From Chthonomonas sp. (GTDB taxonomy: Bacteria; Armatimonadota; Fimbriimonadia; Fimbriimonadales; Fimbriimonadaceae), in assembly GCA_016788115.1 (NCBI GenBank), contig JAEURR010000007.1, positions 278,488 through 342,487 of the forward strand: DNA of 64,000 bases, read 5' to 3'. The notes under the pieces are model-generated. The model had not been told where the DNA came from. It did no database searches and saw nothing but the letters and a program-made list of their open reading frames with translations. Within the stretch, counting starts at the first letter, position 1. Each line of letters begins with the position of its first letter. Shown in pieces: positions 31,807 to 35,804 of the stretch. A program made the position numbers and the translations under genes.

Positions 31807-31836
31807 TTGAAACTTTCGCAACTTTCATGGAATACT
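31807..31836 (+). promoter_or_regulatory. promoter of the manganese riboswitch transcript
   Basis: TTGAAA at 31807-31812 and an extended -10 TGGAATACT ending at 31836, with 18 nt between hexamers. Transcription would start around 31843, shortly before the riboswitch. Confidence 0.55.
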
Positions 31837-31858
31837 CTGCGTTGAATAGAGAGAACCC

Positions 31859-31944
31859 TGAAGGGGAGTAGCACCCACTACGGTGGGGGTTGGATCGTCA
31901 AGACGCGCGAAAGCGCCGGTCCAATCTGAAAAGCAAGACCTTCA
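31859..31944 (+). ncRNA. yybP-ykoY manganese riboswitch aptamer
   Basis: Matches the yybP-ykoY family element by element: GGGGAGTAGC (31863-31872), the hairpin CCCAC/GTGGG (31874-31887), TTGGA paired with TCCAA (31890-31894, 31920-31924), TCGTCAAGACG (31895-31905), a GCGC-GAAA-GCGC tetraloop hairpin (31905-31916) and AGCAAGACCTTC (31932-31943). The closing helix is TGAAGG (31859-31864) with CCTTCA (31939-31944). The family senses Mn2+, and its known targets include TerC-type membrane proteins; a terC gene follows two genes downstream. Confidence 0.9.
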
Positions 31945-31974
31945 TCGCAATCGATTGCGGTGAAGGTCTTTTTT
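31935..31974 (+). terminator. riboswitch expression platform terminator
   Basis: A 16-bp stem (31935-31950 with 31955-31970, loop TCGA) followed by TTTTTT. Its left arm contains the 3' strand of the aptamer closing helix, so aptamer folding and terminator are mutually exclusive. Mn2+ binding should therefore turn the operon on. Confidence 0.88.
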
Positions 31975-32009
31975 GTTGCGAAACAGTCCAGGGTCACGGA
32001 AATCGGAAC

Positions 32010-32855
32010 ATGAACAATCTGAAAGTCGGAATTTTGATGGCGGGTATTACCGCACTCTTCGTGCTGTGTGGCAATGCGCTGGGCGGTTCGGCGGGCATCA
32101 TCATCGCCGTCGTGCTTGCGCTGGTCATGAACATCGGCACGTACTGGTTCAGCGACAAACTCGTGCTGAAGATGACGCGTGCGATCCCCATTGACCCGCA
32201 GCAGGCTCCCGAGTTGCACGAGATGGTGCAGTCTCTGAGCCGGCGGGCGGGGATCCCCACGCCACGGCTTTACCTGGTGCCGGACGCTTCGCCCAACGCG
32301 TTTGCCACGGGTCGCAACCCGGCAAACGGCGTGGTCGCGGTCAACCAGGGTTTGCTGGACATCCTCAATCGCGAGGAGGTCGAGGGCGTCATTGCTCACG
32401 AGATCGCGCACATCAAGCACCGCGATACGCTGACCAGTGCAATCGTCGCCACCATGGCGGGAGCGATCTCATCGATCGCGAACATGGCCATGTTCGCCAG
32501 CATGTTTGGCGGAGGCAATAACGACGAGGAAGGGGGGAACCCGCTCGTTGGGCTATTGCTCATGATCGTCGCCCCGCTGTCGGCCATGCTCATCCAGCTC
32601 GGAATCTCCCGAGCCCGCGAGTATGAGGCCGACAAGACGGCCGCTCAGCTCGTAGGAAGCGGTCGGGGGCTACAGAACGCATTGATCAAGCTACACAAGG
32701 GTGTCAACGCAATGCCGGGCCATATGAGCCCGACTGCTGCCCACATGTGCATCGTCAACCCATTCGGCTCGCTCACGCGCGGTATGGCGTCGCTCTTCAG
32801 CACGCACCCGCCGATGGAAGAGCGTGTGCGCCGACTCGAAGCTTTGCGTGGCTAA
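32010..32855 (+). CDS. htpX: membrane zinc metalloprotease HtpX (M48)
   Basis: Inner membrane protease that degrades damaged or misfolded membrane proteins. The 281-residue protein has two N-terminal helices (about 7-45), the zinc motif VIAHEIAHIKHRD with His130, Glu131 and His134, further hydrophobic segments (about 145-200) and the downstream EYEADKTAA with the third ligand. ATG 32010 follows the riboswitch terminator by 35 nt. It is the first gene read through the manganese riboswitch, which is an unusual control for HtpX. Confidence 0.93.
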   Translation: MNNLKVGILMAGITALFVLCGNALGGSAGIIIAVVLALVMNIGTYWFSDKLVLKMTRAIPIDPQQAPELHEMVQSLSRRAGIPTPRLYLVPDASPNAFATGRNPANGVVAVNQGLLDILNREEVEGVIAHEIAHIKHRDTLTSAIVATMAGAISSIANMAMFASMFGGGNNDEEGGNPLVGLLLMIVAPLSAMLIQLGISRAREYEADKTAAQLVGSGRGLQNALIKLHKGVNAMPGHMSPTAAHMCIVNPFGSLTRGMASLFSTHPPMEERVRRLEALRG

Positions 32856-32872
32856 CACGTCAGGAGACCACC

Positions 32873-33181
32873 ATGAATTGCCCCAAGAACTGTAACACCC
32901 CGCTCCAGATGTCCGAACGGCACGGCGTCGAAATCGACTACTGCCCGCAGTGCCGTGGCGTCTGGCTCGACCGCGGAGAGCTCGACAAAATCATTGACCG
33001 TGCAATGGAGATGGAGAGCGGCCCCAAGACGGTCGCTCCGCCCATCCCCGATCCGCGCGCGGTCGACGACGATCGCTACGATCGAGATCGTTACGAGAAG
33101 GATCGCTACGATCGGGACAGTGACTACTACAAGAAGCGCCGAAAGAAAAGCTTCCTCGGCGAGATTTTCGACTTTGACTGA
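32873..33181 (+). CDS. zf-TFIIB zinc ribbon protein
   Basis: 102-residue protein with a zinc ribbon of the TFIIB-like bacterial family: the first Cys pair is CPKNC and the second is CPQCRGVWLDRGELDKI. The C-terminal half is a repetitive Asp/Arg/Tyr stretch (DDRYDRDRYEKDRYDRD) ending in KKRRKKSFLGEIFDFD, as in related proteins. Function unknown. GGAG lies upstream of ATG; it follows htpX by 17 nt and is in the riboswitch operon. Confidence 0.82.
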   Translation: MNCPKNCNTPLQMSERHGVEIDYCPQCRGVWLDRGELDKIIDRAMEMESGPKTVAPPIPDPRAVDDDRYDRDRYEKDRYDRDSDYYKKRRKKSFLGEIFDFD

Positions 33182-33208
33182 GAACACCTGACCTTCCCTA
33201 CAACACTC

Positions 33209-33239
33209 GGGGTGCCGCGAGAACAATCGCAGGCACCCC
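33209..33239 (+). other. stable intergenic hairpin between zf-TFIIB and terC genes
   Basis: A 12-bp GC-rich stem with one bulged A (33209-33220 with 33227-33239, loop GAACAA). It is followed by only three T, so it may be a weak terminator, a processing site or a stability element that lowers terC output relative to htpX. Confidence 0.5.
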
Positions 33240-33264
33240 ACTTTCGGAACACAACTAACATTCA

Positions 33265-34284
33265 ATGGAACTGGCTGGAATTCATATAGGTATCTGGGGA
33301 GCTTTCCTCACATTTGTCGTCGCGATGCTAGCGCTTGACCTCGGGGTCTTCCACAAAGAAGCCCATGAGGTGAAGATGAAGGAGGCGCTCACGTGGAGCG
33401 CCGTCTGGATCGCTTTGGCACTCGTTTTCAACGCGGGAATCTTCCTCTTCTGGGACAAGATCGGCGCCGCGTCAAACTACTCGGCCTCGGAAGCCGGGCA
33501 AGCGTTCTTGGCGGGCTATCTCGTTGAGAAGGCTCTCAGTGTGGACAACATCTTTGTCTTCCTGATGGTCTTCGCGTACTTCCAAGTCCCCGCACGTTAC
33601 CAACACCGAGTGCTTTTCTACGGAATCCTCGGCGCGCTCATCTTCCGTTCAATCTTCATCGCCGCTGGCGCGACCCTGCTCCAGAACTTCCACTGGATGC
33701 TGTTCGTCTTCGGTGCGTTCTTGATCATCACCGGTGTGAAGATGGTGATCCTGAAGGACAAGAAGATCGATCCCGACAAGAACCCGATCATCAAGGGCTT
33801 CAAGAAGCTCATGCCCGTAACCAAGGAGTACGTGGGGCAAAACTTCTTCACGCGCATCAATGGCAAGCTTTGGGCCACCCCGCTCTTCATTGCGCTGCTC
33901 TTCATCGAACTCACCGACATCATCTTTGCGGTCGACTCGATCCCGGCCATCTTCGCGATCACCAAGGATCCGTTCATCGTCTTCACCTCGAACGTCTTTG
34001 CCATCCTCGGTCTTCGCGCCCTCTTCTTTGCACTGGCCGGGTTGATGAACATGTTCCATTACCTGGGTTACGGCCTGGCCGCGATCCTGGTCTTCGTGGG
34101 AGGCAAGATGGTGGGCAACGGTTTCCACTACAAGTTCCCCATCGCTCTCTCGCTGCTGATCATCATCGGAATTCTCGCGATTTCGGTCATCGCCAGCCTG
34201 ATGTTCCCGCCCAAGAACCCTGCCCATGGGCTGCCAGTGGAACCCAAGCCAGAGCTCGACGAGCAGCCGAGCCCGGTCGCCTAA
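33265..34284 (+). CDS. TerC family membrane protein (Alx/YkoY-like)
   Basis: Inner membrane protein of 339 residues with about eight to nine helices and the TerC acidic motifs in helices: FLAGYLVEKALSVDNIFVFLM near the start and LLFIELTDIIFAVDSIPAIFAIT in the second half. TerC proteins such as Alx and YkoY are linked to Mn2+ export or metalation of exported enzymes and are the classic targets of yybP-ykoY RNAs, which agrees with the riboswitch upstream. A stable hairpin lies between it and the previous gene. Confidence 0.92.
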   Translation: MELAGIHIGIWGAFLTFVVAMLALDLGVFHKEAHEVKMKEALTWSAVWIALALVFNAGIFLFWDKIGAASNYSASEAGQAFLAGYLVEKALSVDNIFVFLMVFAYFQVPARYQHRVLFYGILGALIFRSIFIAAGATLLQNFHWMLFVFGAFLIITGVKMVILKDKKIDPDKNPIIKGFKKLMPVTKEYVGQNFFTRINGKLWATPLFIALLFIELTDIIFAVDSIPAIFAITKDPFIVFTSNVFAILGLRALFFALAGLMNMFHYLGYGLAAILVFVGGKMVGNGFHYKFPIALSLLIIIGILAISVIASLMFPPKNPAHGLPVEPKPELDEQPSPVA

Positions 34285-34385: not shown

Positions 34386-35804
34386 ATGCCAACCGCCGCC
34401 AAACCCGTGACCAAGATGACCATCAAGCGCGAGGAACTGAACCCTTGCACGATCAAGCTCGACGTAGTTTGCACGTCAGAGCAAGTCCAATCGGGCTTCG
34501 CTCGTGCCTACAAGGGCTTCAGCAAGCAGATCCGCATCCCCGGGTTTCGACCGGGTCACGCCCCCAAGAGCGTCGTGCAGAAGTACGTACCGCAAGAGGA
34601 TGTGAACGGCGCAGCCGCAGAATTCATCGTCAAAGCCGCCATCGGTGAGGCCCTCACCGCCGAGGAAATCCAACCGCACGATGCGCCGGCCGTCACACTG
34701 ACCGCGCTCGATGAGGCCGAGAGCAAGTGCGAGTTTTTCGCCAAGGTTCCGCTCAAGCCGGTGGTTGAGTTGGGCGATTACAAGGGTCTCCCCGCTGAGC
34801 GCACGACCATCGAGGTCACCGACGCGGAAGTGGACCAACGCATGGAAGAACTGCGACAACGCAGCGCCAAGCGCGAAGTCGTCCGTGATCGCGGAGCGAT
34901 GGACGGAGACATGGCCGTCGTCAACATCAAGAAGGATGGCGACGAGGGCGAGGGACGCAACATCCTCAGCGTCATCGGGCAGAACTTTGACGCCCTCGAC
35001 AAGGCGCTCCACGGCATGGCCGGTGAAGAGATGAAGGTCGAGACCCTCACCTTCCCCGCGGATTTCCAGGACAAGGACCTCGCAGGCAAGAAGGCCAAGG
35101 TCCGAATCACGCTGAAGACGCTCGCGAGCGTTGCCCTGCCCGAGCTGGACGATGCCTTTGCCCAAAACCTGAAGGAGCTGAAAGCTGAGAACCTCAACGA
35201 ACTCAAGGCGAAGCTGAAGGAGCGCCTGATCGCTGCGCGCGAGCAGGCCAGCCAGGAGATGGTGAACGAAGCGCTCCACGAGGAGATCCTCCGCCGAAGC
35301 ACCGTCCACGTGCCGGACACCATGTGGGAGAGCGTCGCCAACCAGCGACTGGGAGAACTTGACCAGGAGGCTCGACGCAACGGCAAGACCATCGAGGAAT
35401 ACGCCAAGGAAAATGGCATGACGCTCGAAGAGATGGTCCAGAATTGGCAGCACGAAGCCAAGACCCAGGTCCAGCGCGCCGTCGTCGCCCAAGAGATCTT
35501 CGCCAAGGAGAAGATGCAGCTGACGAACGAGGATCTGAACACGGCACTCGTCCAAATGGCGTACGAGTATCAAGTTCCGCCTGCACAGATCGCCGAGATC
35601 ATGCAGAAGAACAAGAACTTCACCGAGTTGCAAATCCGAGCGGTCTTCAACCGTGTTGTCGGCTTCTTGAACGACAACGCCGAGATTAAGGAAGTCGGCA
35701 GCACCGGTGGTGCCAAGAAGGCCAAGGCCGCCGCGAAGCCCAAGGATGACGCGCCTGCGGTAAAAGCTCCCGCCAAGAGCACGGCTGCCAAGAAGAAGAG
35801 CTAA
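34386..35804 (+). CDS. tig: trigger factor
   Basis: Ribosome-bound chaperone with peptidylprolyl isomerase activity. The 472 residues show the ribosome-binding domain with the signature QIRIPGFRPGHAPKSVV (about 49-64, canonical GFRxGxxP), the FKBP-like domain (about 155-240, MDGDMAVVNI to KAKVRITLKTLA) and the long C-terminal helical domain. A Lys/Ala-rich tail of about 35 residues extends the protein slightly beyond the usual length. No clpP/clpX follows, unlike in many genomes; a terminator ends the gene. Confidence 0.95.
   Translation: MPTAAKPVTKMTIKREELNPCTIKLDVVCTSEQVQSGFARAYKGFSKQIRIPGFRPGHAPKSVVQKYVPQEDVNGAAAEFIVKAAIGEALTAEEIQPHDAPAVTLTALDEAESKCEFFAKVPLKPVVELGDYKGLPAERTTIEVTDAEVDQRMEELRQRSAKREVVRDRGAMDGDMAVVNIKKDGDEGEGRNILSVIGQNFDALDKALHGMAGEEMKVETLTFPADFQDKDLAGKKAKVRITLKTLASVALPELDDAFAQNLKELKAENLNELKAKLKERLIAAREQASQEMVNEALHEEILRRSTVHVPDTMWESVANQRLGELDQEARRNGKTIEEYAKENGMTLEEMVQNWQHEAKTQVQRAVVAQEIFAKEKMQLTNEDLNTALVQMAYEYQVPPAQIAEIMQKNKNFTELQIRAVFNRVVGFLNDNAEIKEVGSTGGAKKAKAAAKPKDDAPAVKAPAKSTAAKKKS

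Follow-up and report, generated by a model that had tools for sequence, protein, structure and literature searches.

The window analysed here is a 64,000-nucleotide stretch of a Chthonomonas sp. genome (G000, at C7:278488-342487; Armatimonadota, order Fimbriimonadales, in agreement with its named HtpX relatives), in which htpX, a small zinc-ribbon gene and terC follow one another on the forward strand behind a structured leader. Their coordinates, with those of the leader elements, are given in Table 1. The HEIAH motif of HtpX lies at residues 130-134, and the H, E and H of this HEXXH motif are invariant in our HtpX alignment (A2); against NF002826 the protein scores 358.6 bits, slightly below the equivalog cut-off of 369. 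The third gene encodes a full member of TIGR03718 (R_switched_Alx, 416 bits); unlike the typical riboswitch-controlled TerC of this family, it is placed behind htpX and a zinc-ribbon gene. Between the zinc-ribbon gene and terC, at about 33209-33239, stands a GC-rich hairpin, GGGGTGCC...GGCACCCC, whose U-tail is poor; because of it, terC may be less expressed than htpX. At the other end of the operon, the candidate promoter matches at 9 of 12 positions, a weak signal taken alone since 0.9 such sites are expected per shuffle of the region, and its placement is compatible with a transcript start near 31843.

Table 1. Leader elements and genes of the htpX operon (positions in the window).
Feature	Position	Strand	Evidence or remark
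Candidate sigma-70-type promoter: TTGAAA, 18-nt spacer, AATACT, TG before second hexamer	31807..31836	+	
Predicted yybP-ykoY-type Mn2+ riboswitch aptamer, P1 + P2 + P3/P4	31855..31943	+	R1/R2 scores, fold, covariation
P1 switch helix, 5' strand GAAGG (partner 31939-31943)	31860..31864	+	A1 pairs 6-116 to 10-112
L1 signature GGGGAGUAGC	31863..31872	+	No variation in 30 order relatives
L3 signature CGUCAAGACG, invariant adenosines 31900 and 31903	31896..31905	+	
CCGG closing P3/P4 arm	31916..31919	+	Invariant or near-invariant in A1 and A3
Intrinsic terminator, 16-bp stem 31935-31970, then U-run	31935..31976	+	Expression platform
P1 3' strand CCUUC, also part of terminator 5' arm	31939..31943	+	
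htpX, M48 membrane metalloprotease, HEIAH motif	32010..32855	+	PF01435 139.7 bits
Small Zn_ribbon_TFIIB protein	32873..33181	+	PF13453 69.6 bits; recurrent in these operons
terC, Alx subfamily	33265..34284	+	PF03741; TIGR03718 'R_switched_Alx' 416.2 bits, cut-off 246.4

The predicted aptamer is compact (89 nt). Folded alone and without any constraint, positions 31850-31947 form P1, P2 and the P3/P4 arm at -35.6 kcal/mol, and the fold of the leader (31840-31980) has a z score of -6.05 relative to shuffled sequences, none of 200 shuffles being as good. Alignment A1 gathers 30 elements from Fimbriimonadales, in which the L1 and L3 signatures are invariant, two L3 positions varying among the relatives (AG, UU, GU, CU). 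P3 pairs are kept in 113 of 150 cases, against a mean of 70 and a maximum of 91 with shuffled partners, and P4 pairs in 77 of 90, against a mean of 50 and a maximum of 60 (2000 shuffles each); in P1 (pairs 6-116 to 10-112), both sides have changed at two pairs. A second alignment, A3, spans a diverse set of 21 elements, with alx and mntP of E. coli among them. The L1 core GGGGAGUA is constant in all 21 rows, and so are C45, A46 and A49 of L3 (first-row numbering). In dozens of genomes the element is found again ahead of an htpX or terC orthologue, and its P3/P4 pairing is far above that of shuffles, so that a product of chance can be dismissed. With the yybP-ykoY riboswitches (RF00080; alx and mntP of E. 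coli, yoaB of L. lactis) it shares L1 GGGGAGUA, L3 UCA..A, CCGG and GCRAGACC, the placement of the P1 3' strand within the expression platform, and TerC and P-type ATPase families as neighbours. It differs from the reference members by its compact form, invisible to RF00080, and by a first gene, htpX, that is not a transporter.

The 3' end of the aptamer, GCAAGACCUUC (31933-31943), is where aptamer and terminator meet. The terminator alone is worth -24.2 kcal/mol. In the full leader, the CCUUC strand (31939-31943) is taken up by the terminator, at -62.1 kcal/mol; forcing P1 brings the energy to -47.6 kcal/mol, the two folds being mutually exclusive. This re-use of the P1 3' strand by the terminator is found in 29 of the 30 order relatives. 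In L. lactis, helix P1.1 is stabilised by Mn2+ binding, and its 3' segment becomes part of the terminator when Mn2+ is not bound; the A41U mutation abolishes binding (PMC11087558). Both invariant L3 adenosines are present in the window. As the layout in the window is that of L. lactis, Mn2+-dependent read-through is the best reading. We estimate at close to 87% the probability of a reading in which 31855-31976 belongs to the yybP-ykoY (Mn2+) riboswitches and acts on transcription as an ON switch for htpX, the zinc-ribbon gene and terC; the ligand and the direction of switching are those of the riboswitch class, from which we infer them. At low Mn2+, CCUUC would be captured by the 16-bp terminator and transcription would end before htpX. 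At high Mn2+, an ion docked between L1 and L3 would keep P1 closed and withhold CCUUC from the terminator, so that the polymerase would proceed into htpX, the zinc-ribbon gene and terC. An earlier note on this DNA had described a complete yybP-ykoY element whose 3' closing strand is common to aptamer and strong terminator, ahead of htpX, a zf-TFIIB protein gene and, third, terC, and had predicted an ON switch. The element has all its parts and an unconstrained fold, the shared strand lies in the terminator 5' arm in the window as in the relatives, and the three genes match PF01435, PF13453 and PF03741/TIGR03718 in that order; the switch prediction now has as its basis the sequence, the covariation, the conserved platform and a recurrence in five phyla.

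The same note had proposed a search with the Rfam model RF00080 (177 positions, cut-off 45). No match to the window was obtained, either at the gathering score or at E<=10. Alx and mntP of E. coli are experimentally supported Mn2+ riboswitches, and a calibration was made on E. coli K-12: mntP (L072:3462-3558) reached 41.6 bits, under the cut-off, and alx (L071:4372-4499) was not listed. Since the model misses one validated riboswitch and places the other below its own threshold, its silence in the window is uninformative, and we dropped it as a refutation of the riboswitch.

We used instead two models of our own. R1, built from the 30 elements of A1, gives the window, itself a training row, 84.2 bits. 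It recovers the two best RF00080 loci in the relatives (L001 and L002, at 57.8 and 72.6 bits), and in the two E. coli loci it matches, at E<=1, nothing but the alx and mntP leaders, exactly in place albeit weakly (13.8 and 13.2 bits), so that R1 and RF00080 converge. In 79 kb of htpX/terC loci without the motif, R1 had no match at E<=1. Because R1 was weak on E. coli, the broader model R2 was built from 21 elements including the window (75.1 bits, again as a training row), alx, mntP and htpX leaders. Over 435 kb, R2 produced 12 strong matches, every one directly before htpX, the next score being 12.7 bits. A 20-bit R1 match inside the trigger-factor gene (34939-35048) is absent with R2 and was taken as noise, and sub-threshold Rfam matches of the window to the rnk leader and to microRNAs were taken as chance. 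One further sub-threshold match, at 31870-31975, spans aptamer and terminator: RF02617, SSRC10, annotated as Streptococcus sRNA 10 (30.3 bits, cut-off 56). Its consensus carries the yybP-ykoY signatures (GGGAGuagC, CGUC, CCGg, AGCgaGaCcu) and a terminator sharing the strand. We did not retain SSRC10 as the identity of the leader, and regard the family as a mis-filed relative, probably the attenuation product of a Mn riboswitch annotated as an sRNA.

Most of the genomes compared in this analysis are metagenome assemblies. Within Fimbriimonadales, R1 matches were found in 49 of 101 genomes, with one in G000. Among 52 classified elements, the first gene is htpX in 19 and terC, or a zinc ribbon followed by terC, in 23; of the remaining elements, 2 lead a zinc ribbon with no terC in view, 3 a P-type cation ATPase and 5 other genes. 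Nine of the htpX cases are htpX-terC operons (G000, G001, G002, G007, G013, G063, G080, G096, G098), and in ten, htpX follows the element without an adjacent terC (G010, G014, G016, G032, G061, G062, G064, G071, G090, G099). Moreover, G014, G016, G061 and G071 possess two separate elements, one before htpX and one before terC. From the ten genomes without adjacent terC and the four with separate elements, we conclude that htpX is targeted independently of terC. This survey of element order, which the earlier note had suggested, supports its reading of htpX as a gene led by the element. As a counter-case, htpX adjoins terC at one locus, G009:C1:174094-176290, with no detectable element upstream. 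Genes for a TolC-like protein and ABC type I secretion, or an ABC gene, stand behind R1 elements at G056:C4, G033:C1 and G072:C4.

The pairing of element and htpX is seen in at least five phyla: Armatimonadota, Nitrospirota, Gemmatimonadota, Acidobacteriota and the phylum of the Syntrophomonadia class. In a collection-wide scan, 12 of 80 HtpX loci had an R2 element directly upstream, 8 of them in the Fimbriimonadales group. The other four belong to Nitrospirae (L144), Gemmatimonadetes (L161), Acidobacteria (L139) and Syntrophomonas (L149); all four are in the R2 training set and none was used to train R1, which nevertheless ranks them next after the Fimbriimonadales loci. RF00080 itself matches the Syntrophomonas locus at E 2e-5. 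At L139 and L161, htpX is followed by terC, and at L144 by a zinc ribbon. Wider scans found the element in 72 of 200 genomes of the Nitrospirota class, with 32 of 85 elements lying 52-181 nt before htpX and a zinc ribbon often coming next. For the Gemmatimonadota class, the figures are 20 of 149 genomes and at least 8 of 27 elements with htpX first, often with terC next; for the Syntrophomonadia class, 20 of 63 genomes, with htpX behind several elements (L149, L202, L272, L277, L278) and a P-type ATPase, a YjbE-type TerC or DedA behind others. In the HtpX tree, rows with an element fall for the most part among others of the same phylum, and the element state must change 7 times or more (in a quick tree where gain and loss are not separable), which argues against a single recent mobile cassette.

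What HtpX does in such operons is a matter of hypothesis. TerC/Alx would lower or redistribute Mn2+, and HtpX would be co-made to remove those proteins, in the membrane or exported, that the excess has damaged or mis-metalated or that the exporters themselves have harmed. In B. subtilis, HtpX and FtsH co-purify by co-immunoprecipitation with the TerC protein MeeF (PMC10550928), a result in favour of joint action by TerC and HtpX. There, the link between the two protein families is physical co-purification; here, at the DNA level and in other phyla, it is a shared predicted Mn2+-riboswitch control. Tentatively, and with some reserve, we suggest that in several phyla Mn2+ riboswitches drive exporters plus a membrane quality-control arm made of HtpX, small zinc ribbons of the TFIIB type and, depending on the lineage, HflK-like SPFH proteins, TerC and HtpX being possible partners of which the first would supply or export Mn2+ at the membrane and the second remove mis-metalated proteins. 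The active site of E. coli HtpX probably faces the cytosol, and a need of HtpX itself for TerC-supported metalation, as the earlier note had suggested, is for this reason less likely.

The same riboswitch might also induce HtpX against membrane stress caused by the induction of TerC or P-type ATPase exporters, rather than against Mn2+ damage. The co-purification just mentioned would fit such a role, and a study of E. coli mntP describes the regulation of this gene as evading manganese and membrane toxicities (PMC11647493). The solo htpX units, which have no neighbouring exporter, speak against it, even though separate units could still be co-induced; we find this explanation rather unlikely.

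A lower chance still is given to a metal riboswitch of the same architecture tuned to another divalent ion, which would be the inducer of htpX. Some common yybP variants may indeed sense other divalent ions (Breaker and colleagues, PMC7266159), two L3 positions vary as described above, and HtpX is a zinc protease. However, every core position common to alx and mntP is retained, the alx L3 sequence UCAUUAC is found unchanged in relatives, and in the same order this type of element leads Alx-type terC and P-type cation ATPases, which are classic manganese targets. That the switch serves terC, with htpX a mere passenger in the transcript, has very little left in its favour: no gene of the window operon besides terC is a recognised Mn gene, but the solo htpX units of Fimbriimonadales, the second elements before terC and the 32 Nitrospirota elements directly before htpX largely rule it out. 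A ligand-free constitutive terminator with its leader, acting as attenuator or small-RNA gene, is hardly credible, for in spite of the strength of the terminator and the SSRC10 match, invariant loops, covarying P3/P4 and a P1/terminator overlap in 29 of 30 relatives are unexpected for a plain terminator, and the SSRC10 consensus itself shows the yybP-ykoY signatures.

The aptamer class itself has been described before; as one of its targets in several phyla, HtpX appears to be unreported. The earlier note knew of no description of HtpX as a riboswitch target, and our literature search agrees within its scope: full-text searches, with key subscription papers and supplements outside their reach, found no work naming HtpX as a Mn-riboswitch target, the matches for HtpX with yybP-ykoY or manganese riboswitch being only the TerC paper and unrelated works. 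The main text of a regulon study on 232 yybP-ykoY elements has no mention of htpX (PMC3766115). Given the recurrence of the pairing in at least five phyla, the manganese response of bacteria seems to include HtpX on a regular basis, an involvement for which our searches found no report. To our knowledge, HtpX has few known triggers or substrates. The recurring link to Mn2+ riboswitches offers a specific and testable signal for HtpX. It also favours a functional connection between TerC and HtpX, which co-purification alone had suggested so far. Furthermore, compact Mn riboswitches escape RF00080, which leaves them, and with them the Mn regulon of many phyla, under-annotated.

Other genes behind the element are further candidate members of the regulon; they encode zinc ribbons, beta-carbonic anhydrase, SPFH and DedA proteins. 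In predicted Mn-riboswitch operons of Armatimonadota and Nitrospirota, small Zn_ribbon_TFIIB (PF13453) proteins are found repeatedly, and their genes stand ahead of terC or of a P-type ATPase gene, or follow htpX (the window, L144, L206, L208, L209, L219, L223, L229). A beta-carbonic anhydrase gene is found behind the element in the Nitrospirota class (L211, L215, L216, L220, L224, L225, L228) and in one Fimbriimonadales genome (G034:C11); PF00484 was confirmed for L216, and an HflK-like SPFH protein comes next in L216 and L220. SPFH/Band_7 is also the first gene behind element-like sites of three genomes of the Gemmatimonadota class (L254, L255 and L257, in G457, G427 and G401), each with three such sites, some of which may be false matches. 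SPFH/Band_7 genes would extend the predicted Mn regulon by another membrane quality-control gene. Finally, DedA-family (VTT domain) genes lie behind the element at L205, L265, L271 and L273 (Syntrophomonadia class), once with htpX as the second gene.
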